A DNA stretch of 60,237 nucleotides from a virus: IMG/VR virus record IMGVR_UViG_3300032048_000003, positions 1 to 60,237 of that record; one strand, written 5' to 3'. Below, piece after piece: positions 2,710-42,828 of this stretch (position 1 is its first letter; each line of letters begins with the position of its first letter). The notes under the pieces were generated by a model, which worked only from the letters and a program-made list of their open reading frames with translations, made no database searches and was not told the DNA's origin. The position numbers and the translations under genes were made by a program.

Positions 2710-3007
2710 ACCACTACCCCACTATGTAACAATTAAAAGATCTCCCATTTCCGGCCTAGGCCTTTTTGCAACAGAGAGAATTGAAGCACATTCATTAATT
2801 GGAATTACCCATCATGCAGATGAGCGCTCTGACGATGGATTCATTAGAACCCCTTTGGGAGGATTTGGTAATCATTCTGATGATCCTAATTGTTTCAAAC
2901 TTTTGATGGATCCTAAAACTTGGTGGATAGGTGCTTTAAAAGACATTGAATCCGGAGAAGAACTTACTTGGTGTTATACATTATATAAAATTAAAAATAA
3001 GGCTTGA
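2702..3007 (+). CDS. SET-domain protein, putative protein-lysine methyltransferase
   Basis: A 101-residue minimal SET domain. Diagnostic motifs appear in order: GLGLFATERI near residue 19, GNHSDDPNC near residue 55 (canonical NHSxxPN, SAM-binding pseudoknot) and GEELTWCY near residue 85 (canonical GEELTxDY, with Cys for Asp before the catalytic Tyr). SET proteins transfer methyl from SAM to protein lysines. There are no pre- or post-SET domains. Its start overlaps the radical SAM stop by 8 bases, so the two are probably co-translated. The target could be a host or virion protein; this is not determinable here. Confidence 0.8.
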   Translation: MYKPLPHYVTIKRSPISGLGLFATERIEAHSLIGITHHADERSDDGFIRTPLGGFGNHSDDPNCFKLLMDPKTWWIGALKDIESGEELTWCYTLYKIKNKA

Positions 3008-5756: not shown

Positions 5757-5780
5757 TTCACCTACCAATTTCATTACATT

Positions 5781-5912
5781 ATTGAAATCATTACAGATAT
5801 TTGTTTATCAATGATATCAATGCCTTCTAATTATCTTATTGAAATCATTGATAATCTTTTATCAGCAATGATATCAACGGTTTCTAATTATCCTATTGGA
5901 ATCATTGATAAT
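5781..5912 (+). repeat. 57-bp tandem repeat array with ATCATTGAT operator motifs
   Basis: Two full 57-bp units (5781-5837 and 5838-5894) and a partial third (5895-5912). Each unit begins with ATTGAAATCATTGATAAT (or a close variant) and carries its inverse ATCAATGATATCAA 27 bases on, so the motif alternates in orientation at 5781, 5808, 5838, 5865 and 5895. The last copy starts exactly 26 bases before the -35 box at 5921. The same cassette recurs at 21175 and, as one site, at 23892. It looks like a transcription-factor binding array, not a CRISPR. Confidence 0.8.
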
Positions 5913-5920
5913 CATTTCTG

Positions 5921-5949
5921 TTGCTTTTTTGAGCTAGATATGATATAAT
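5921..5949 (+). promoter_or_regulatory. Sigma70-type promoter (TTGCTT-17-TATAAT) after the repeat array
   Basis: A -35-like TTGCTT at 5921-5926 and TATAAT at 5944-5949 are separated by 17 bases. The weak -35 box, preceded by the repeated ATCATTGAT sites, suggests that a DNA-binding protein modulates it. It drives the small genes from 6004. Confidence 0.75.
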
Positions 5950-6003
5950 ATAATATAGGATAAAAACAGGGTGTGATTATTCTTAACCGCAAAGAGAGAG
6001 ATT

Positions 6004-6096
6004 ATGTTTATTACCGAATTAATTAGATTTATTGGAACAATCGTCGTGTTCGCAGGACTGATGTATATGGTCACTATTCTTTATTTTGTATTATAG
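6004..6096 (+). CDS. 30-residue membrane protein
   Basis: ATG at 6004 follows a purine-rich GAGAGAG ribosome site and encodes one hydrophobic helix (LIRFIGTIVVFAGLMYMVTI) with almost no soluble part. It is the first frame after the repeat-controlled promoter, and its stop is 7 bases before the next ATG. Function unknown; a small membrane-active early peptide is plausible. Confidence 0.5.
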   Translation: MFITELIRFIGTIVVFAGLMYMVTILYFVL

Positions 6097-8835: not shown

Positions 8836-9042
8836 ATGAAAAGGCTATTATTAATTTTTATAATGATGGCAACATGGATAGTTGTTGGTTGTAGTACAGC
8901 AGGATGTTATGGACATTGGGTTAAAGGACCCGGTCATCATAGAGGAACTAGAGCGCTCCTTAAAGACGCTCATTTACCTTACTATCAATGTGTAGATGAG
9001 AATAACAAAGGCAGCAATTTGGAGAAACGGAGATATTTGTGA
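8836..9042 (+). CDS. Small lipoprotein, paralogue of the one at 9335
   Basis: A 68-residue protein from ATG 8836; the frame upstream only translates the tRNA-Val. A basic tip and hydrophobic core (KRLLLIFIMMATWIVV) end in the lipobox VVGC at residue 19. The mature part begins CSTAGCYGHWV with a Tyr/His/Cys-rich tail. It is probably acylated and anchored in the inner or outer membrane. The signal region is nearly identical to the 9335 protein and both share GCxGHWV and YxQCVD, so they arose by duplication. A superinfection-exclusion or spanin-like role is speculation. Confidence 0.65.
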   Translation: MKRLLLIFIMMATWIVVGCSTAGCYGHWVKGPGHHRGTRALLKDAHLPYYQCVDENNKGSNLEKRRYL

Positions 9043-9334: not shown

Positions 9335-9568
9335 ATGCAGAAAAAGCTATTATTAATTTTTATAATGATGGCGACATGGACGGTTGTAGGGTGTGAATCA
9401 GTAAAACAAGCAGGATGTTTTGGTCATTGGGTAGAACATAATGATGGATCCAGAAGCGGTCATAAGAGAGGTACGATTTATTCTAATCGACATAATGTTA
9501 CACCTTATAGACAATGCGTGGATGCAGAAGCCCCACACTTAAATAAAGAACGGAGGCCATTCGGATGA
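9335..9568 (+). CDS. Small lipoprotein, paralogue of the one at 8836
   Basis: A 77-residue protein preceded by AAGGAG at the right distance. The signal peptide KKLLLIFIMMATWTVVGC carries the lipobox VVGC (Cys 20). The mature chain keeps GCFGHWV, an Arg/Gly-rich centre and YRQCVDA, paralleling the 8836 protein. It overlaps the next lipoprotein gene by 4 bases (ATGA), so three lipoproteins may be made together. Confidence 0.65.
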   Translation: MQKKLLLIFIMMATWTVVGCESVKQAGCFGHWVEHNDGSRSGHKRGTIYSNRHNVTPYRQCVDAEAPHLNKERRPFG

Positions 9569-10614: not shown

Positions 10615-11646
10615 ATGTCGGATAAGGAAATAAAAGAAGAAGTAAATGATGAAGAGCAAGCTGAGGCCATGGAAGATCCTTCGAATCCTGCGTCAGAACT
10701 GGTGGATTTAGTCCTTTCCGGTGAGCTACACGCAGCAAACGAGAAGTTTAATAGTATTGCAGAATCTAAAGTAGTTACAGCAATTGAAGATGAGAAGTTA
10801 AAAATCGCTCAAACTCTTTTCAGTGAAGATGAAGAGCCCCTTGAAGAAGCACCTAAAACTAAAGTAAAAGAAGATGATGATGAAGACGAAGACGACGAAG
10901 ACGATGATAACGAGGCAGGGGAAGATGATGGCGATGATAAGCCAGCTGCTCCTAAAGATAAGGAAGATGAAGATGATGATTCAGATTCAGATGATTCCGA
11001 TGAAGGAGATGATAAACCGAAGAAAGGTAAAATTCCTCCTCAGTTTATGAAGAAAGAGGAAGTATCTGCATCAGAAGGGGTCACCGGTGATGATGATGCG
11101 AATGAAAAAGCGTTAGCTAAAAACCGCGCTATGGCAAAGAAGTATGGCCAAGTTCGTCAGGGCATCCCCGCAGATAAAAAAGAAGAAGTAAAACCTGAAC
11201 AATCTTTTGATCCAGGTGAAGCAAGCACTAACATGCCACTTCCGGAATACTCTTTTGTAGCACAAGTAGCTAATCATTTATCTGGAAATAGAGGTGGATA
11301 TATAAAAGAAGATCTTGCCAGAGATATTGAAGCCGGCTTTAAAAAGTTATCTTCAAAGAAGGCTAAAGCTGGTAAGTCCGATGGCTTCGAAGGTAATGCA
11401 ATAAAATGCGGAGATTATAAGATTACTCCAGTTAAATATCACGATGCATCAGATACCACACCAGGTGCAGATGAAAGTATTGCCTTTCACGTATATGTTG
11501 AAGACGGTAAAGGAAAAGCTGTGACGGGTAAGATAAATGCAAGTCAGGGTGCTGACGCGATAGATTTTGAAACCGAATCCGGAAAATTTTCTTCGAGCGA
11601 TAAAAAGACAGCTAAAGAAATCGAAAAGTGGTGTAATTCAAATTAA
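10615..11646 (+). CDS. Late structural protein: prohead-core-like N-terminus, acidic linker, and a duplicated C-terminal domain
   Basis: A 343-residue protein. Residues about 22-70 (SELVDLVLSGELHAANEKF onwards to IAQTLFSE) resemble a helical segment found in T4-like prohead core or scaffold proteins. Residues about 72-145 are an extreme Asp/Glu/Lys-rich linker. The C-terminal part (from about residue 215) has SFVAQVANHL, then GGYIKEDLARDIEAGFK, IKCGDYKI and KEIEKWC, closely matching the whole protein at 42307 (GGYIKEDLARDIEKGFK, IKCGDFFI, KSIEQWC). It is preceded by a late promoter. Assembly or internal head protein is my inference; the shared domain is directly visible. Confidence 0.6.
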   Translation: MSDKEIKEEVNDEEQAEAMEDPSNPASELVDLVLSGELHAANEKFNSIAESKVVTAIEDEKLKIAQTLFSEDEEPLEEAPKTKVKEDDDEDEDDEDDDNEAGEDDGDDKPAAPKDKEDEDDDSDSDDSDEGDDKPKKGKIPPQFMKKEEVSASEGVTGDDDANEKALAKNRAMAKKYGQVRQGIPADKKEEVKPEQSFDPGEASTNMPLPEYSFVAQVANHLSGNRGGYIKEDLARDIEAGFKKLSSKKAKAGKSDGFEGNAIKCGDYKITPVKYHDASDTTPGADESIAFHVYVEDGKGKAVTGKINASQGADAIDFETESGKFSSSDKKTAKEIEKWCNSN

Positions 11647-19396: not shown

Positions 19397-19475
19397 TGGC
19401 TGCGGAGGGTGGAGTCGAACCACCAGTTTTATTCGTCCAACAAACGATTGCGTTTACCGATTTCGCCACTCCGCA
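19397..19475 (-). tRNA. tRNA-Asn (GUU), minus strand, CCA encoded
   Basis: On the minus strand: acceptor TGCGGAG/CTCCGCA, D arm GCG/CGC, anticodon stem TCGT/ACGA around TTGTTGG (anticodon GUU), T arm GGTGG-TTCGACT-CCACC, G73 and encoded CCA. U1-A72 and G73 are the tRNA-Asn identity pattern. The anticodon stem has one A-A mismatch, position 37 is G, and the variable region is 7 nt, so it is slightly divergent. It is just downstream of the AsnRS-like gene on the same strand. Confidence 0.8.
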
Positions 19476-19620
19476 ATTTTTCTAATTCTATTGCTTGTCT
19501 TTGCAATTGATCTAATACTTCATGAACACCAGCACCATTTTTATAAATTGGAATTGCTTTATTACTTTTTACTGAAAATAATTTTCCATCTTTATAAACT
19601 GGAATTATTTCTTCAGTCAT
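19429..19620 (-). CDS. Small protein between AsnRS-like gene and tRNA-Asn
   Basis: A 63-residue frame whose ATG overlaps the end of the AsnRS-like gene (ATGACTGA). Residues 5-29 contain an internal repeat (IPVYKDGK and IPIYKNGAG) suggestive of two beta hairpins, followed by a helix. The last 15 residues are the translation of the tRNA-Asn. The natural protein probably includes the repeat and helix; the tail is a by-product of the overlap. Function unknown. Confidence 0.45.
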   Translation of the reverse strand: MTEEIIPVYKDGKLFSVKSNKAIPIYKNGAGVHEVLDQLQRQAIELEKLRSGEIGKRNRLLDE

Positions 19621-20545
19621 TTTCTAATTTCACCCCATATTTCCGCCGGCCATTATCATCTGCATCTGGATTCAAATTACTATATATCTTCAAGGCACTT
19701 ATAAGTCTGGTAAGGCCTATTCCTCCACCATATCTTGGAAAAAATTTATGACTTAAAAATTCTTTCAATTCTTTTTCTACCCGTTCTTTACCGAATAATT
19801 TAAATAATAATCCAGCATATTCTCCATCGGAAATTGTATGAAACTGGTCTTCCATCTCTTTCGGATCAGCAGACCTTTCAGCGGAACCAATAGTTTCCAT
19901 GCCTCCCATAATTACATCGCATTTGTTAGCAAGTTCTTTTTCTTTTTTCATATTCCAAAAGGGAGAAGTATGGTAAGGAAATTTAGTTATAAATCCAACT
20001 CCGGTAGGATGAGAATCAGATATCATTTGTTCGTGCTCGTGATCTAATTCTTCGCAATTAAATTCTTGACACCACATTTTGTAAGTTTTTTCAGGAAATG
20101 GTCCATTGGTTATGAAATTTCCAAACCCAAATTGTCTGGCAACGAAGTCAGGAACTGTGAAACCTAAGTGCTTAACTAAATCTCTTTCCATATTAAGCAA
20201 GTCCTCAAAGTCACCTGGCGCTTCAAATTCAAACATGGGAAATATAACTTCATGTCTACCTTCAACAGGATTCTGTTCTTGTCTATAAGATGTTGAAACA
20301 CAGAATACACCTTTTAAATCTGGATTATTTAATAGCTCGTATTCCAACCACATTTGGCCGGTTTGAGGTAAAGGCCATATGATATCATTATAATTATATG
20401 TTGCGACAGTTGTAGGATCTTCGCATGCGGCTAATATGGATAATCTGTTTTGGGTATGGACTTCGAGGAAATTTTTATCTAAAAAAAATTGTCTAAGGGA
20501 GGTTGTCACTTTGGTAAAATCATGAGGCGAGATGTTCGTCGTCAT
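19613..20545 (-). CDS. Class II aminoacyl-tRNA-synthetase-like protein (AsnRS/AspRS catalytic domain)
   Basis: A 310-residue minus-strand protein without the N-terminal anticodon-binding OB domain of true AsnRS (about 430-470 residues). Motif 2 is clear (SYRQEQNPVEGRHEVIF then MFEFE, about residues 85-110) and motif 3 is RYGGGIGLTRLISAL near residues 273-287. IWPLPQTGQMWLEYELL resembles the Asp/Asn pocket. It could be an asparagine synthetase-like paralogue (as in archaeal AS-AR and AsnA) making Asn from Asp, a stripped AsnRS, or an amino-acid ligase. Its neighbour is tRNA-Asn, favouring an Asn-related role. The lone strand flip suggests separate acquisition. Confidence 0.75.
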   Translation of the reverse strand: MTTNISPHDFTKVTTSLRQFFLDKNFLEVHTQNRLSILAACEDPTTVATYNYNDIIWPLPQTGQMWLEYELLNNPDLKGVFCVSTSYRQEQNPVEGRHEVIFPMFEFEAPGDFEDLLNMERDLVKHLGFTVPDFVARQFGFGNFITNGPFPEKTYKMWCQEFNCEELDHEHEQMISDSHPTGVGFITKFPYHTSPFWNMKKEKELANKCDVIMGGMETIGSAERSADPKEMEDQFHTISDGEYAGLLFKLFGKERVEKELKEFLSHKFFPRYGGGIGLTRLISALKIYSNLNPDADDNGRRKYGVKLEND

Positions 20546-20617: not shown

Positions 20618-21112
20618 ATGAAAAAGAAACATAGACAACTCTACGATTCGTGGAAATATAAATCAAGAAATTTTATGGAATTTAATAATCCCGTTTTTCA
20701 GGCCCTATTAGGTCTTGTCATATTCTATATCGGACTCAAGATGTTCTCAGGTGGAATGAAATCAATGAGTCATTTAGAACAACTTGAATGGTTTTTAGGA
20801 AATCCTTATTGGATGTTTCTTGGAGCAATTGTATGCACTCTTCTTTGGCAATCTTCATCTCTTACCACAACCGCTGTTATAGGACTTGTTGCATCTGGCG
20901 CATTACCACTTCCGTCTGCGATTGCGGCAATACTTGGAGCAAACGTAGGAACAACAGGAACAATATGGATTGCAGGAATATTAGTGAGCGATGGACTACC
21001 TACCGGAATTACTAAACAAGTGGCTCTTGTACATACAGGAGTGAATACAGTTATGGCGATTGCCTTACTTCCATTTATACAACCTATATCACGATTTATA
21101 TCAAAGTTTTAG
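20618..21112 (+). CDS. Half-size Na+/phosphate cotransporter (single PF02690-type repeat)
   Basis: A 164-residue membrane protein. LWQSSSLTTTAVIGL (residues 76-90, with the QSSS Na+/Pi motif) and AILGANVGTTGTIWIAG (104-120, GANVGTT) are hallmarks of the Na/Pi cotransporter family (NptA/SLC34-like), which normally contains two inverted repeats of this unit in one chain of 300-600 residues. Here only one repeat is present with about four membrane segments, so a homodimer would be needed for transport. Phosphate uptake would support phage DNA synthesis. TAATAAATATT upstream resembles a late box. It is followed by a structured RNA and the next promoter cassette. Confidence 0.8.
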   Translation: MKKKHRQLYDSWKYKSRNFMEFNNPVFQALLGLVIFYIGLKMFSGGMKSMSHLEQLEWFLGNPYWMFLGAIVCTLLWQSSSLTTTAVIGLVASGALPLPSAIAAILGANVGTTGTIWIAGILVSDGLPTGITKQVALVHTGVNTVMAIALLPFIQPISRFISKF

Positions 21113-21165
21113 ATGGTCTGGGGGCGCCAAGCAGGGTTCTTGCGCCCTGGACCTTCGGGCCATCT
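21111..21165 (+). other. Highly structured GC-rich element after the transporter gene
   Basis: Starting at the stop codon, AGATGG (21111-21116) pairs with CCATCT (21160-21165), enclosing a stable hairpin GGGCG-CAAG/CTTG-CGCCC (21122-21147, one bulged C). The last segment can instead form a C(UUCG)G tetraloop hairpin (TGG-A-CC-TTCG-GG-CCA), exclusive with the closing helix. No poly-T follows, so it is not a classic terminator; it may protect the message end or act as a switch. Confidence 0.5.
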
Positions 21166-21174
21166 ATCTACCTT

Positions 21175-21250
21175 ATTGAAATCATTGATAATCTTTTATC
21201 ATCAATGATATCAACGCGTTTGATGTATCCCTATGGAATCATTGATGATC
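21175..21250 (+). repeat. Second copy of the ATCATTGAT promoter cassette
   Basis: ATTGAAATCATTGATAAT (21175-21192), its inverse ATCAATGATATCAA (21201-21214), and ATGGAATCATTGATGAT (from 21233) repeat the layout of 5838-5912 with the same roughly 57-base period. The shared sequence continues through ATCATTTCTGTTG into the -35 box, so the entire control region is duplicated. Confidence 0.8.
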
Positions 21251-21257
21251 ATTTCTG

Positions 21258-21286
21258 TTGACATTTTGGGTAAATTATAGTATAAT
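21258..21286 (+). promoter_or_regulatory. Sigma70-type promoter (TTGACA-17-TATAAT) for the CobT-like gene
   Basis: TTGACA at 21258-21263 and TATAAT at 21281-21286, spacer 17. The proximal operator-like site begins about 25 bases before the -35 box, as at 5921 and 23918. A GAGAGA ribosome site precedes the ATG at 21325. Confidence 0.9.
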
Positions 21287-21324
21287 ATAAGTAGAGAATA
21301 AAACAATATCGAGAGACGAGAGAG

Positions 21325-23847
21325 ATGAACGAATTACGAGAACAAAAATCAATCCTAGCTAAGTTAATGGCAACCGAGAATATAACGGTTCGTCATGCTA
21401 AAGTCCCCACCGCAGGATTTGATCCAAGATCACGAACACTACTTTTACCAATCCTCAAGGAGATGGAAGGCGAAGTCTATGACTTGTTTGTCTGCCATGA
21501 GGTCGGACATGCATTACATACACCAGCAGAAGGTTGGCATAAAGCGCTTTGCGAAGAAGGACCTAATTATAAGGGATTTTTAAATATTGTCGAAGATGCG
21601 CGAATTGAGAAACTCGTTAAGCGCAAATATCATGGTGCAGCCAAAGCGATGCACAAAGGATATAAGAAGCTGATACATGAGCGCGATTTCTTCGGGATTC
21701 AAAAAAATGGAATTGATATCAATAAAGGTTCACTGATTGATAAACTCAACGTTCATTTTAAAGGTGGTCCGCTCGAAGCTGTTCGGTTTACTGACGAAGA
21801 AATGTATTATGTTCGTGAGATGGAAAATCTTGAGACATGGGATGATGTAGAACAATTGACTGGAGAGCTTTTTGAATATTGTAAAGGTGAAGAACAACAA
21901 CTTCAGGATTTTGATCAAATGTCAATAGATTTAGAAGAGGATGATGAGTTCGACGAAGATGAAGATGAAAATGAATGTATGGGCGAAAATTATCAAGAGT
22001 TCGCACCAGAAACTCCATCGGAAGAAAATCCAGAAAGTGAAGATCAAGCAACAAAAGAAGATTGTGAACAGCCGGTTGATACATGCGACGAATCAACCAG
22101 TAAAGAAGATGGCGAAAAAGAAGAAACACAACTTGAGCAAAATGCGGATGCAGAGAATCAAGGCTCTCCCGAAAAGAAGGAAGAAAAGAAGGATTCGACC
22201 GGCAAGGATGCAGGCACTGGTGGACATGATTCATGGTATGAAGAAGATCCATGGACATGGGAACCTAAGGCATTCACCGATGAAGAGCATAGATCCCATG
22301 AAGACGAATTAGTCCATGAAGATGCAATCGAGATTCGATATTATAATTCTCCGAAGATGTATATCAAAAATAATGATCTAATTGTTGATTATAAAACATT
22401 AATAAAACAATATCGCACAATCACTTCAGATCTTGACGGAAGAAGAAAAGAGGTGCCAGCACATATTTGCATTGAATATGCAAAAGAATATCTAAAACGA
22501 ATCGATAAGGACAATAAACCAGTTGTCAATTATCTCGCAAAGGAATTCGAGATGAAGAAGCGCGCGACTGAATATAAAAGATCTCAGACCTCTAATTCAG
22601 GAATTATATCATTGACAGATATCCATAAGTACAAATATTCAGATAACATTTTTAAGAAAGTTACAATTATTCCAGAAGGCAAGAATCACGGATTGTACAT
22701 GTTGGTTGATTGGTCAGGATCGATGCACGATAAGATCTTACCAACATTTATTCAGTTATTGCAGCTTATGGATTTTTGTAGGAAATGTGATATCAAACAT
22801 GAAGTGTATGCTTTCGTTGATTATAGTTGGGATGAAGAAGGAAAAGATATCACTGGTGAAAAAAAGGAGAGAATATTAATTGAACCAGAAATAGGATCGA
22901 TCACAACTGGAGATCGTTGCTTGACATTGATGCAAATGTTTTCGGATAAAATGTCTGCGAAAGATTTTCGAGAAATGAGAGAATTTATGGTCTTGACTTT
23001 GGTTAGATGTGATAAAGATTTTCATGATGCTCCTTGGACGATGCAAAGAAAGGCGAATGCCATAGCACGAGCGGAACATTTTGGAAGAAAGCCTCGTGAA
23101 GTTAAAGAGACTATGCAATTTGAAATTTGGCGCGATTGGGCTAGAGAAAAGCATGAACTGGGAACTTGGGAATGGCAAGCAATGACACACAAGTGGGATT
23201 TTCCAATGTCTAGACTTTGCGGGACCCCGTTAAATGATGCAATAATGTTAAGTATTCCAAATTGTATCAAATTCAGAAAGGATAATAAGTTGGATATTGT
23301 TAATACGATTATTTTAACAGATGGAGAATCAAATTCTTCTAATAAATATTTCAAGGAATATTTTGATGAAGAAGGAGAATCATATAAAATTGATACAGCA
23401 GAAATAGAACATAAAGATGTTCGTAACAAGTTAGTTGATCGTGACTCGAAAAAAGTATTCAACTGGTCACGCAAGGATCGTAGACAAGAAACTAAGAATT
23501 TTCTTGAATATTATAAATGGAAAACATCATCGAATGTTTGTGGATTCTTTCTTTGCACTAGTTCTGAAACAGCAGGAAGAGTAGGAAGCGGTTCTTATTA
23601 TTCTCCGGAATTTAGAGAGAAAAGAAAAGAATATAATAGGAACGGATTTATTATTAATACTGATCTTGGCTATACAGAATTGTATGTGATCAAGGCGAAC
23701 ACGAAAGTCGATACTGAAGATGAGATCGATCTGGATACCGATAAAAAATTATCCACCGCGCAAATAACACGAGCATTCAAAAAGTTTCAAAAAGGAAAAC
23801 TTGAGAAGCGCATTCTTCTTAATCACTTCGCTGAATTGGTTGCTTAA
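21325..23847 (+). CDS. CobT-like VWA protein with N-terminal HExxH metallopeptidase-like motif
   Basis: An 840-residue protein. HEVGHALHTP (H58-H62) is an HExxH zinc motif with VEDARIEK about 30 residues on, as in the N-terminal region of phage CobT/VWA peptidase-like proteins. Residues about 195-330 are a very acidic, low-complexity linker as in CobT. A VWA domain follows, with MIDAS DWSGS near residue 462 and LTDGES near 666. It pairs with the AAA+ CobS-like protein under matching promoters. CobS-CobT with CobN insert cobalt in B12 synthesis; no CobN is present, and an AAA+/VWA protein-remodelling machine is an equally good reading. Confidence 0.7.
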   Translation: MNELREQKSILAKLMATENITVRHAKVPTAGFDPRSRTLLLPILKEMEGEVYDLFVCHEVGHALHTPAEGWHKALCEEGPNYKGFLNIVEDARIEKLVKRKYHGAAKAMHKGYKKLIHERDFFGIQKNGIDINKGSLIDKLNVHFKGGPLEAVRFTDEEMYYVREMENLETWDDVEQLTGELFEYCKGEEQQLQDFDQMSIDLEEDDEFDEDEDENECMGENYQEFAPETPSEENPESEDQATKEDCEQPVDTCDESTSKEDGEKEETQLEQNADAENQGSPEKKEEKKDSTGKDAGTGGHDSWYEEDPWTWEPKAFTDEEHRSHEDELVHEDAIEIRYYNSPKMYIKNNDLIVDYKTLIKQYRTITSDLDGRRKEVPAHICIEYAKEYLKRIDKDNKPVVNYLAKEFEMKKRATEYKRSQTSNSGIISLTDIHKYKYSDNIFKKVTIIPEGKNHGLYMLVDWSGSMHDKILPTFIQLLQLMDFCRKCDIKHEVYAFVDYSWDEEGKDITGEKKERILIEPEIGSITTGDRCLTLMQMFSDKMSAKDFREMREFMVLTLVRCDKDFHDAPWTMQRKANAIARAEHFGRKPREVKETMQFEIWRDWAREKHELGTWEWQAMTHKWDFPMSRLCGTPLNDAIMLSIPNCIKFRKDNKLDIVNTIILTDGESNSSNKYFKEYFDEEGESYKIDTAEIEHKDVRNKLVDRDSKKVFNWSRKDRRQETKNFLEYYKWKTSSNVCGFFLCTSSETAGRVGSGSYYSPEFREKRKEYNRNGFIINTDLGYTELYVIKANTKVDTEDEIDLDTDKKLSTAQITRAFKKFQKGKLEKRILLNHFAELVA

Positions 23848-23891: not shown

Positions 23892-23946
23892 ATTGAAATC
23901 ATTGATAAACAAAAGGGTTGACATTTTTGCCAAAATAGCGTATAAT
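23892..23946 (+). promoter_or_regulatory. Operator-like site plus sigma70-type promoter for the CobS-like gene
   Basis: ATTGAAATCATTGATAA (23892-23908) begins exactly 26 bases before TTGACA (23918-23923), with TATAAT at 23941-23946 (spacer 17). This is the minimal, single-site form of the control cassette at 5781 and 21175, and the sequence after the -10 (ATAAGTAGAGAATAAAA) is shared with the 21281 promoter. Common regulation of the three units is implied. Confidence 0.85.
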
Positions 23947-23990: not shown

Positions 23991-25154
23991 ATGAGACACC
24001 GAGACCAATTAGTAGAAGCCTGGAAGCAAGCACATGGAGATTCAAAAGTGCTTGACAGATCCGCGGTAAATAGAGTAGCCGAGGAAGCAGGGCTTAAAGA
24101 ACCGAATCAGAATTTTCTGAGTAAACTTAGAGTTGGCCGAAATCAATTTTCGATTGCCAATTATGGACAAGCATTACAAATTATGCCACAAGCGAAGTGG
24201 GGCGATCGTTATCGTAAACCAAAAGTCGTTGAAGATGCCCGCGTAGTTCAACACGAGACCGCAATTAAAAAGGTTGACGAAGCAGTTTCATTCGTTCCTT
24301 CTCCTGATCCTAATTATATCAAGGCAGGTTATTTTGCTGAGATTGTTAAGATCATGCAGGCAGGAATGTTTATTCCTACGTTCGTTACAGGTCTTTCCGG
24401 AATGGGTAAAACCAAAGAAGTCTTCGAAGCCGCAGCGAAATCAAAACGCGAATTGATTCGTGTTAATATTACAATTGAAACCGATGAAGATGATTTGCTC
24501 GGTCACTATACCCTTAAAGATGGAGAAACTGTTTGGGAAGACGGACCAGTGATTGTCGCAATGGAAAGAGGCGCGATTCTTCTTCTTGATGAAATTGACC
24601 TTGCGTCAAATAAGATTATGTGTTTGCAGCCAGTACTTGAAGGCGGCGCCATTTTTTTGAAGAAGATTAATCGACTTGTTAATCCAGCACCGGGATTTAA
24701 CATTATCGCAACCGCGAATACTAAAGGTAAGGGATCTGATGATGGCCGGTTCATTGGAACCAATATTCTTAATGAAGCGTTTCTTGATCGTTTCCCAATT
24801 ACATTTGAACAGAATTATCCAAATGCATCAACAGAGAAAAAAATTGTTGCTAAAATCCTTTCAAATTATGAAGTCAAAGATGATGAGTTTGTTGACCATT
24901 TGGTTCAATGGACTGATGTAATTCGTCGAACATTTGACGATGGAGGAATTGATGAAATTATTTCAACTCGTCGTTTAGTAAATATCGTTAACGCTTATAT
25001 GGTTTTCAGAAGCAAGGAAAAAGCGATCGAATATTCGATCAACCGTTTCGATGAAGATACAAAAAATGGATTTATGGACCTCTGGAGTAAAGTAGATCCT
25101 TCTGCCGTGCCTGAAGAAGAAAATCAGGACTTGGAAGACCAAGCATTAGAATAA
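23991..25154 (+). CDS. cobS: CobS-like AAA+ ATPase
   Basis: A 387-residue protein. Residues 1-90 form a small helix-turn-helix-like region; Walker A is GLSGMGKT (about 134-141), Walker B ILLLDEID (about 196-203), and sensor-type NIIATANTKGKG with the arginine-finger region NEAFLDRFPI follows. The order matches the MoxR/CobS AAA+ group, and cobS-like genes are common in marine T4-like phages. Its partner is the VWA protein at 21325. A cobaltochelatase role would tie with the B12-dependent reductase at 58257; a chaperone role is the alternative. The ribosome site is GAGAGAG before ATG 23991. Confidence 0.8.
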   Translation: MRHRDQLVEAWKQAHGDSKVLDRSAVNRVAEEAGLKEPNQNFLSKLRVGRNQFSIANYGQALQIMPQAKWGDRYRKPKVVEDARVVQHETAIKKVDEAVSFVPSPDPNYIKAGYFAEIVKIMQAGMFIPTFVTGLSGMGKTKEVFEAAAKSKRELIRVNITIETDEDDLLGHYTLKDGETVWEDGPVIVAMERGAILLLDEIDLASNKIMCLQPVLEGGAIFLKKINRLVNPAPGFNIIATANTKGKGSDDGRFIGTNILNEAFLDRFPITFEQNYPNASTEKKIVAKILSNYEVKDDEFVDHLVQWTDVIRRTFDDGGIDEIISTRRLVNIVNAYMVFRSKEKAIEYSINRFDEDTKNGFMDLWSKVDPSAVPEEENQDLEDQALE

Positions 25155-25163
25155 AAATAATCC

Positions 25164-25192
25164 TTGACATTTATAACGTTATCATTTATAAT
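25164..25192 (+). promoter_or_regulatory. Sigma70-type promoter (TTGACA-17-TATAAT) for the cold-shock gene
   Basis: TTGACA at 25164-25169, TATAAT at 25187-25192, spacer 17. It overlaps the left arm of a perfect palindrome and lies 52 bases before the cold-shock ATG. Confidence 0.9.
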
Positions 25193-25210
25193 ATAAATAA
25201 ATGATAACGT
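25176..25210 (+). promoter_or_regulatory. Perfect 14-bp inverted repeat overlapping the promoter (operator)
   Basis: ACGTTATCATTTAT (25176-25189) is exactly mirrored by ATAAATGATAACGT (25197-25210), spacer 7. It covers the -10 box and the expected transcription start, as a repressor operator would; it could also fold in the message. The half-site differs from the ATTGAAATCATTGAT motif, so a different regulator is likely. Confidence 0.75.
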
Positions 25211-25243
25211 AAATAATTTTAATTTTAAAAATAAGAAAGTAAG

Positions 25244-35327: not shown

Positions 35328-36461
35328 ATGGAAGGCTTATTTGAAAGCATTCTGACCGCAATAGCGGTTGTTATTAATGGCATACCACAGGGAATTTTAG
35401 CGTTAAGTTTTGGCTTCGCAGCTTTTCCTACGGCAATAGCATTTGTAATTGGTATTATTGGTTCGGCATTCTTTATGTCTGTCGCAACTATATCCTTTCA
35501 AGCAGAAACAATCACGTTAGCTGGTACTCTAGGTAATAATATAAAAGAAAGACTTTCTCTTATATTTTGGGGTGCCACCCTACTGTTGATTCCCTCTTTG
35601 CTTGGAATGAATGAAGCGTTAGTTAATTTTATTGGTCCACTAGTTGTCACATCAATGATGGCTGGAGTGGGTATTATGTTAGCGAATGTTTCTGTAGATT
35701 TGTTTAAGTCAGAAAAATGGACAGGAGGAGTATCTTTAATTAGTGCTTTACTTGCTTGGTTTTGGACCAAAGACTTAGCACAAACAATTATATGGTCCGT
35801 AAGTTTATCCACACTTTTTTATGTTGCATTAAAGTTTAATGCTGAATTGCGTGAAAAGTTAGGTGTCGTACTAGAAGAAATTGTAGTAGACAAATCACGC
35901 GAAAAGTTTACAACGGGCAACATTGAGTGGAAGTTTTGGACTAATAGAAACATTGTTATTGGTGCTTTATCATTAGCATGTTTAAACATTGGCGCCAATA
36001 TTTCATTTGGTAAAATTACTGGAAGTATTGCAGGGACTAATACAAATATAGATCATCTTGCAATTTATTCTAGTCTTGCAGATATGGGATCAGCATTCTT
36101 TGGTGGTGGCCCAGTTGAAGCGATAATTTCTGGAACCGCGGCCGCACCTATGCCAATAGTTGCATCTTGTATTATGATGGGAATTATGGCAGTCATTCTA
36201 TTAAGCAAAGCATTGCCTTTGATCGGGCAGTATGTACATAGAGCATCTATTGCAGGTTTTCTTTTTGTATTAGGTGTATTTGTTACCTTTGCTACAAATA
36301 TGGCTGGTGCTATTAGCATTGGTGGAACTTTTGCAGGACCATATGGATTTGGACCAGCAGGAATGGTAATTGGTTCCGCAGCATTTGTAACTGCAAAATT
36401 TAATCCTTTTTATGGTTTGCTTGCAGGATTTGCTACAAGCCTAATCATGATGGGAGCTTAA
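35328..36461 (+). CDS. NCS2-like nucleobase permease
   Basis: A 377-residue polytopic membrane protein with about 10-12 hydrophobic segments. FFGGGPVEAIISGTAAAP near residue 260 resembles the NCS2/AzgA half-helix region, and ATISFQAETITLAGTL near 55 resembles the paired half-helix. NCS2 proteins are usually 400-450 residues; this is slightly short. It likely imports a nucleobase, probably purine, judging from the binding protein before and the phosphoribosyltransferase right after (1-base gap). Family assignment is moderately confident; substrate is inference. Confidence 0.6.
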   Translation: MEGLFESILTAIAVVINGIPQGILALSFGFAAFPTAIAFVIGIIGSAFFMSVATISFQAETITLAGTLGNNIKERLSLIFWGATLLLIPSLLGMNEALVNFIGPLVVTSMMAGVGIMLANVSVDLFKSEKWTGGVSLISALLAWFWTKDLAQTIIWSVSLSTLFYVALKFNAELREKLGVVLEEIVVDKSREKFTTGNIEWKFWTNRNIVIGALSLACLNIGANISFGKITGSIAGTNTNIDHLAIYSSLADMGSAFFGGGPVEAIISGTAAAPMPIVASCIMMGIMAVILLSKALPLIGQYVHRASIAGFLFVLGVFVTFATNMAGAISIGGTFAGPYGFGPAGMVIGSAAFVTAKFNPFYGLLAGFATSLIMMGA

Positions 36462-42306: not shown

Positions 42307-42828
42307 ATGAAAACTTATAAGGATCTAACCCTCGAAGGACTGACGGATGGATTAAGCGGAGGGCATTTTGGTGGATATATAAAAGAAGATCTTGCTCGTG
42401 ATATTGAAAAAGGCTTTAAACAGTTCGATAAGCTTGAAACAGATTATAGTACTGGTAACCATTACGGTAAAAAAATAAAATGTGGAGACTTCTTTATTAT
42501 TCCGGAAATTATGATTGAAGGCGAAAAAGGAGGAGAAGGATACAAAGAAGAAATTAGGAACGTTTCGATAACCCTTCAAGATAAAAAAGGAAAGGATGTG
42601 ACGAAGCTTCTTGATGATTCTGATGATGTATACGACCCCATAGGTCGCAACAAAGGAAACCGCGACATGGAATGGCACAAGTTACAGGGTACTCTTCCCG
42701 GTTGGCAATCCGGTGACCCAGTAGATATTCATGGAGCGAGTGAGAATTTAAATGGAAAATTAACTTCAGTTGATAAAAAATTGGTCAAATCAATTGAACA
42801 ATGGTGTAAGCAAAATTCAGGTAAGTAA
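42307..42828 (+). CDS. Leader-bearing late protein, shares a domain with the 10615 protein
   Basis: A 173-residue protein starting MKTYKDLTLEG, the T4-like capsid-targeting pattern (MKTYQEFIAEA in T4 internal proteins). GGYIKEDLARDIEKGFK, IKCGDFFI and KSIEQWCK match the C-terminal domain of the 10615 protein. No enzyme motif is visible. CTAAATAG upstream (42253-42260) resembles a late box. It probably functions as an internal head or head-associated protein. Confidence 0.6.
   Translation: MKTYKDLTLEGLTDGLSGGHFGGYIKEDLARDIEKGFKQFDKLETDYSTGNHYGKKIKCGDFFIIPEIMIEGEKGGEGYKEEIRNVSITLQDKKGKDVTKLLDDSDDVYDPIGRNKGNRDMEWHKLQGTLPGWQSGDPVDIHGASENLNGKLTSVDKKLVKSIEQWCKQNSGK

Follow-up and report, generated by a model that had tools for sequence, protein, structure and literature searches.

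Activators that touch RNA polymerase from one face of the helix (class I) act at a fixed or phased distance, from a site centred near -55 that does not overlap the core promoter. The locus described here resembles CRP-type class I promoters in having a site at about -60, in its apparent dependence on the face of the helix and in its displacement by whole turns; it differs in that the sequence of the element is unrelated to the CRP site and in that the element is spread over unrelated phages. A second comparison is IHF at lambda pL, for which Giladi in 1998 reportedly described upstream stimulation of this phage early promoter. The lambda pL and attP IHF sites share with our element a YAA-N4-TTGA frame, an A/T-rich flank and, if our reading is right, stimulation of a phage early promoter from upstream, whereas our sites miss the IHF core consensus and carry extra conserved positions.

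The DNA analysed here is a stretch of 60,237 nucleotides (the window) and is, judging by its genes, a fragment of a T4-like marine phage: its DNA polymerase is ~49% identical to a cyanophage DNA polymerase, and it encodes homologues of the sliding clamp, the clamp loader and a RegA-type translation repressor. At T4-type early promoters the -35 box is GTTTAC-like and the stretch from -44 to -40 is rich in A, and at T4 middle promoters a Mot box at about -30 takes the place of the -35 (PMC1524935). The promoters studied here are, like the early ones, phage promoters for a sigma70-type polymerase with sequence preferences upstream of the -35, but they have TTGACA-type -35 boxes and a specific element of 24 bp. 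As at the middle promoters, the -10 of these T4-like phage promoters is preceded by a specific DNA element; a T4 MotA middle promoter nevertheless fits poorly, since the window promoters have a -35 (TTGACA twice, TTGCTT once) and the site starts 25 bp further upstream.

Nine sites at three places in the window

Tandem Repeats Finder independently found an array at 5779-5917 with a period of 57 bp, 2.4 copies and a score of 178, and the 57-base repeat with alternating orientation that an earlier, sequence-only reading had noticed is thus real. Five copies of TTGAWATCATTGATRA alternate in orientation within 5782-5912, and the array consists of five 17-bp sites (TTGAWATCATTGATRAT) with centre-to-centre steps of 29, 28, 29 and 28 bp. 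Hence, the 57-bp period corresponds to two steps of the array. The same reading had seen the last two units recur at 21175; they do, but there are three copies of the 17-mer TTGAAATCATTGATAAT there (span 21176-21249), together with a promoter, and a third place with a single copy at 23893 had been overlooked. The stretches 5822-5968 and 21159-21305 match at 78% over 147 bp. The sites, with mismatches to TTGAAATCATTGATAAT and scores from a matrix built from all nine, are as follows.

5782..5798, + strand: array site 1, most distal and degenerate; 4 mismatches, score 18.1
5804..5820, - strand: array site 2; 2 mismatches, score 21.6
5839..5855, + strand: array site 3; exact, score 24.0
5861..5877, - strand: array site 4; 3 mismatches, score 22.9
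5896..5912, + strand: array site 5, promoter-proximal; 1 mismatch, score 23.2, -35 offset 25
21176..21192, + strand: second cluster, site a; exact, score 24.0
21198..21214, - strand: second cluster, site b; 2 mismatches, score 23.7
21233..21249, + strand: second cluster, proximal site; 3 mismatches, score 21.4, -35 offset 25
23893..23909, + strand: single site; 1 mismatch, score 22.5, -35 offset 25

With their own matrix the nine sites score 18.1-24.0, and nothing else in the 60-kb window scores above 14.3; at a lower cut-off of 11, each of ten block-shuffled windows had between 1 and 8 matches. With up to 3 mismatches allowed, we found 11 matches in the window; third-order Markov simulations averaged 2.1 and never gave more than 6. 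Positions 2, 7 and 11 of the sites hold an invariant or almost invariant G or C. Random distribution of the motif, which the earlier reading had named as an outcome that speaks against a regulator site, is not what the window holds: the nine strong sites are confined to three intergenic promoter regions.

Promoters, register and downstream genes

Each of the three places has a sigma70-type promoter with a 17-bp spacer, and from the start of the proximal copy to the -35 hexamer the distance is exactly 25 bp every time. The promoters, read from the sequence, and the genes that follow them are listed below.

5921..5949, + strand: sigma70-type promoter TTGCTT-N17-TATAAT
6004..6096, + strand: ORF for a 30-aa hydrophobic peptide, the first ORF 3' of the 5921 promoter
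21258..21286, + strand: promoter TTGACA-N17-TATAAT of the second cluster
21325..23847, + strand: 840-aa CobT-like 'peptidase' of T4-like marine phages (phrog_459, E=9e-170), downstream of the 21258 promoter
23918..23946, + strand: promoter TTGACA-N17-TATAAT at the single site
23991..25154, + strand: CobS/MoxR-like AAA+ ATPase (PF07728, E=2e-17; phrog_249, E=1e-108), downstream of the 23918 promoter

The array had been described as ending 26 bases before the -35; instead, its last copy starts 25 bp upstream (5896 to 5921) and, like the other two proximal sites, stops 8 bp short of the hexamer, with no overlap with the core promoter. Sigma70-like promoters of the window at 3004, 7486, 25164, 38600 and 56385 are without a site. 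The 5921 promoter precedes the small-peptide ORF and a cluster of small ORFs. The earlier reading had called it an early promoter; with its sigma70-type -35 and -10 boxes and the small ORFs behind it, it may be one. The product of 21325..23847 has ~31% identity to cyanophage peptidases, and we take it to be CobT-like from its position beside CobS and from general knowledge.

Several other features of the window were observed. Just 3' of the CobS-like gene (25164-25222), a TTGACA/TATAAT promoter has its -10 flanked by an inverted repeat, AACGTTATCAT ... ATGATAACGT, which looks like a separate repressor operator. A tRNA-Asn adjoins a gene for a 310-aa class II aminoacyl-tRNA-synthetase-like protein on the same strand (19397-20545; PF00152, phrog_29758), and just upstream of the second cluster lies a short, possibly truncated Na+/Pi-cotransporter-like protein of 164 aa (20618-21112; PF02690). 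Separate ORFs have 88-89% DNA identity over short stretches (11293-11348 with 42370-42425, and 8838-8892 with 9340-9394), which suggests paralogous gene copies in the phage.

Conservation in T4-like relatives

For IMG/VR contigs with a CobS identity of 74% or more, the site is found before cobS at an unchanged offset in most of the loci that extend as far as the promoter, and there is often a site before cobT too; the single site before cobS is retained in most of the relatives L007-L036. Loci with a CobS identity of 58% and below are without the site. In a 177-kb relative (G003), a site pair stands before a similar small peptide gene (promoter 102406, MSKRIILTEIVRFVG...). Hence, the 5.8-kb promoter has a counterpart in G003. 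Another relative (G008) has a four-site cluster with the 57-bp repeat of the window array, and BLAST of the array against named phages gave no match.

In some relatives (G003 86364-86450, which is L239, and L026-L036), the cobT-side cluster is inverted, faces a divergent synthetase-like gene and adjoins a GATAAATA late-promoter-like box. By eye, a relative of the window's synthetase-like protein is encoded beside the cobT-side cluster in G003 and also in G018.

The element in unrelated phages

When we searched for the site at a distance of 25 bp from a downstream TTG, we found the clade of the window and a group of contigs with a terminase that shares ~40% identity with the Pelagibacter phage HTVC023P terminase; this group has almost no proteins in common with the T4-like clade. 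Several element-bearing lineages have few or no BLAST-detectable proteins in common with the window clade, and the lineages differ in gene content, with a G+C of ~0.30-0.5. With the spacing left open (ATTGAWATCATTGA-N4-34-TTGACA), the matches formed 46 distinct sequence families. An offset of 25 or 26 bp accounts for 16 families, of which 12 have a -10 box, and other offsets mostly held 0-2 families.

When the motif was searched together with a complete promoter, 44 contigs matched, compared with 2 for the reversed-motif control. The 20 distinct families have offsets of 25 (two families), 26 (four), 34 (two), 35 (three), 36, 37, 38, 42, 44 (two), 45 (two) and 47 bp; they group at 25-26, 34-38 and 42-47, with none at 20-24 or 27-33. 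For these 20 families, which by eye include a few coding regions (e.g. L277, L496), the offsets are periodic at 9.5-10.5 bp (Rayleigh R 0.73, p ~2e-5 to 1e-4), and none of 20000 random offset sets was as periodic. Offsets of 25-26, 34-37 and 44-45 bp keep the element fixed or in helical phase relative to the -35, as at a helix-face-dependent upstream activator site. In phage G016 (L526), an element-bearing promoter lies directly 5' of another MoxR-type ATPase gene, recognised as such by eye from its sequence. The element is found at matching distances before promoters in many unrelated phages, beyond the clade of the window.

An extended element and its other contexts

Flanking columns from 30 families give a sharply defined element, [CG]TAA[GC]T[CA]A-TTGAWATCATTG-A-n-G-A-A, with an A/T-rich stretch after it and a preference for G/C at -8, -4 and -2; the left flank is somewhat inflated, as part of it was already required in the searches that yielded some loci. 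The earlier reading had proposed a specific regulator that binds a ATCATTGAT palindrome. A specific site upstream of promoters is borne out by the 25-bp register at three promoters, by the relatives and by unrelated phages; the palindrome, however, is only the core of an element that the flanks extend to ~24 bp with asymmetric halves, and the element is not particular to this phage.

The 20-mer TAASYCRTTGAWATCATTGA has at least 120 copies in IMG/VR, where about one would be expected by our own estimate, and of 82 copies examined, 74 lie between genes. The hosts of named phages with such intergenic copies are alpha-, beta- and gamma-proteobacteria and Myxococcus. In RHph_N65, copies lie inside iteron-like repeats 3' of the primase gene, and in Myxococcus phage Mx1 they form tandem arrays.

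Inverted copies in Rhizobium phage RHph_Y1_20 (L484 701-860) flank a tRNA-like core directly after the integrase gene, placed as arm-type sites would be. Integrase arm sites were rejected as a general explanation, as Phage_integrase occurs in only 2 of 85 flanking ORFs. On Acidovorax plasmid pACP3.1 (L486 941-1150), four tandem 63-bp repeats, each with one copy, lie upstream of an IS481 transposase gene. At L359, L363, L364, L372, L382, L389, L420 and L428, the element has dif-like sequences of the CATAAT...TTATG type as neighbours, which hints at a connection with Xer recombination. Since the element also occurs without an obvious promoter (the integrase/tRNA-like core, iteron-like arrays, dif-like sequences and plasmids), transcription is perhaps not its sole role, and it may serve several nucleoprotein structures.

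Search for a binding factor

No regulator shared among nine element-bearing records was recognisable by blastp, which returned only other proteins and a 73-aa membrane protein, and no phage-encoded IHF/HU homologue was found in 13 element-bearing phage records. The MotA profile PF09114 matched none of 13 such records, with the control genomes silent too. The exact 20-mer was absent from 274 Gammaproteobacterial genomes, in which no host regulon was thus seen; the strict module gave 10 scattered matches in 84,980 species genomes, mostly without a -10, and in E. coli a weak match occurs in 24 of 5,426 genomes, mostly inside a TIR-domain gene. Consensus sites of Fur, FNR, PhoB, CtrA and FIS, compared by eye, do not fit. 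A literature search for the core strings of the element, with most subscription journals outside its scope, returned nothing relevant. The upstream promoter element is apparently undescribed in the literature searched and common to many phages.

Discussion

The sites are probably bound by a sequence-specific factor that acts at a subset of sigma70-type promoters and likely aids the polymerase, as their arrangement in the DNA suggests. The proximal copy, at about -60 of the likely start, would put the factor on the same face of the DNA as RNA polymerase, which it would most likely recruit or stabilise through the alpha C-terminal domain or sigma region 4. From this pattern we infer binding by a protein and activation rather than repression; the extra upstream copies, 28-29 bp apart and alternating, may make binding cooperative. 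Since the element and its register recur in unrelated phages, the factor would probably be a host protein that phages exploit, or else a very widely exchanged phage protein.

The sites could instead be operators at which a phage repressor or a temporal switch turns off the three promoters, cooperatively through the array, which we consider unlikely. The site-bearing promoters have near-consensus -35 and -10 boxes, and since such boxes do not strictly need an activator, a repressor or an anti-silencer is conceivable; arrays of many sites are also typical of repressors. However, the proximal sites leave the core promoter clear, the element is kept when displaced by one or two helical turns, as in the pattern of a face-dependent activator, and the nine records yielded no shared phage regulator gene.

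Equally unlikely, in our estimate, is a high-affinity site for IHF, a nucleoid protein of the host that serves in promoter activation and at attachment sites and origins. IHF is the most serious named candidate factor: the flanks read YAA-N4-TTGAWW and then an A/T-rich stretch, as in lambda H', the hosts of the carriers are alpha-, beta- and gamma-proteobacteria and Myxococcus, and the contexts include integrase/attachment and primase regions. Yet it fits poorly. None of the nine window sites matches the IHF core YAANNNNTTGATW (WATCAANNNNTTR) perfectly (at best 1 mismatch at six and 2 at three), and of the three promoter-proximal sites, two come no closer to it than 2 mismatches. Where IHF sites leave four positions free, our element has a strong bias to GTCA; a second conserved TCATTG lies outside the core, and with the element matrix lambda H1, H2 and H' come only at ranks 1752, 174 and 419. 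The top lambda match is at 35766 on the minus strand (L625), ~180 bp upstream of pL, with a score of 21.4 against a shuffled maximum of 15.1 ± 3.0; this match is only suggestive.

We give still less weight to a promoter UP element, to which the alpha subunit of RNA polymerase would bind directly. The site occupies about -60 to -44, inside the UP range of -60 to -40 (PMC2613000), and helical displacement is tolerated. UP elements, however, are A/T tracts, whose subsites in -60 to -40 have no specific G/C; our element conserves G and C positions across unrelated phages, and the motif is also seen outside promoters and as inverted copies in multi-copy arrays. That the array belongs to a replication origin as iterons, with the promoter association secondary, is very improbable: some phages have copies in repeat arrays beside primase/helicase genes, but the window clade has its sites at three separate promoters in exact register, and two clusters precede CobT/CobS-like genes.

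Returning to a factor that aids the polymerase, we propose more tentatively that the element may be a shared upstream activation site of proteobacterial phages, which would have converged on one host factor to switch on selected promoters through an exact site that is rare in or absent from host genomes. For pelagimyophages, prediction of middle and late promoters was unsuccessful (PMC7029224). If it is true that one factor reads the element in so many unrelated phages, it would be a common dependency of phage takeover. The element would then point directly to the host (or exchanged) protein by which phages raise transcription, and could serve as a ready-made signature when regulated promoters are sought in uncultured marine phages.
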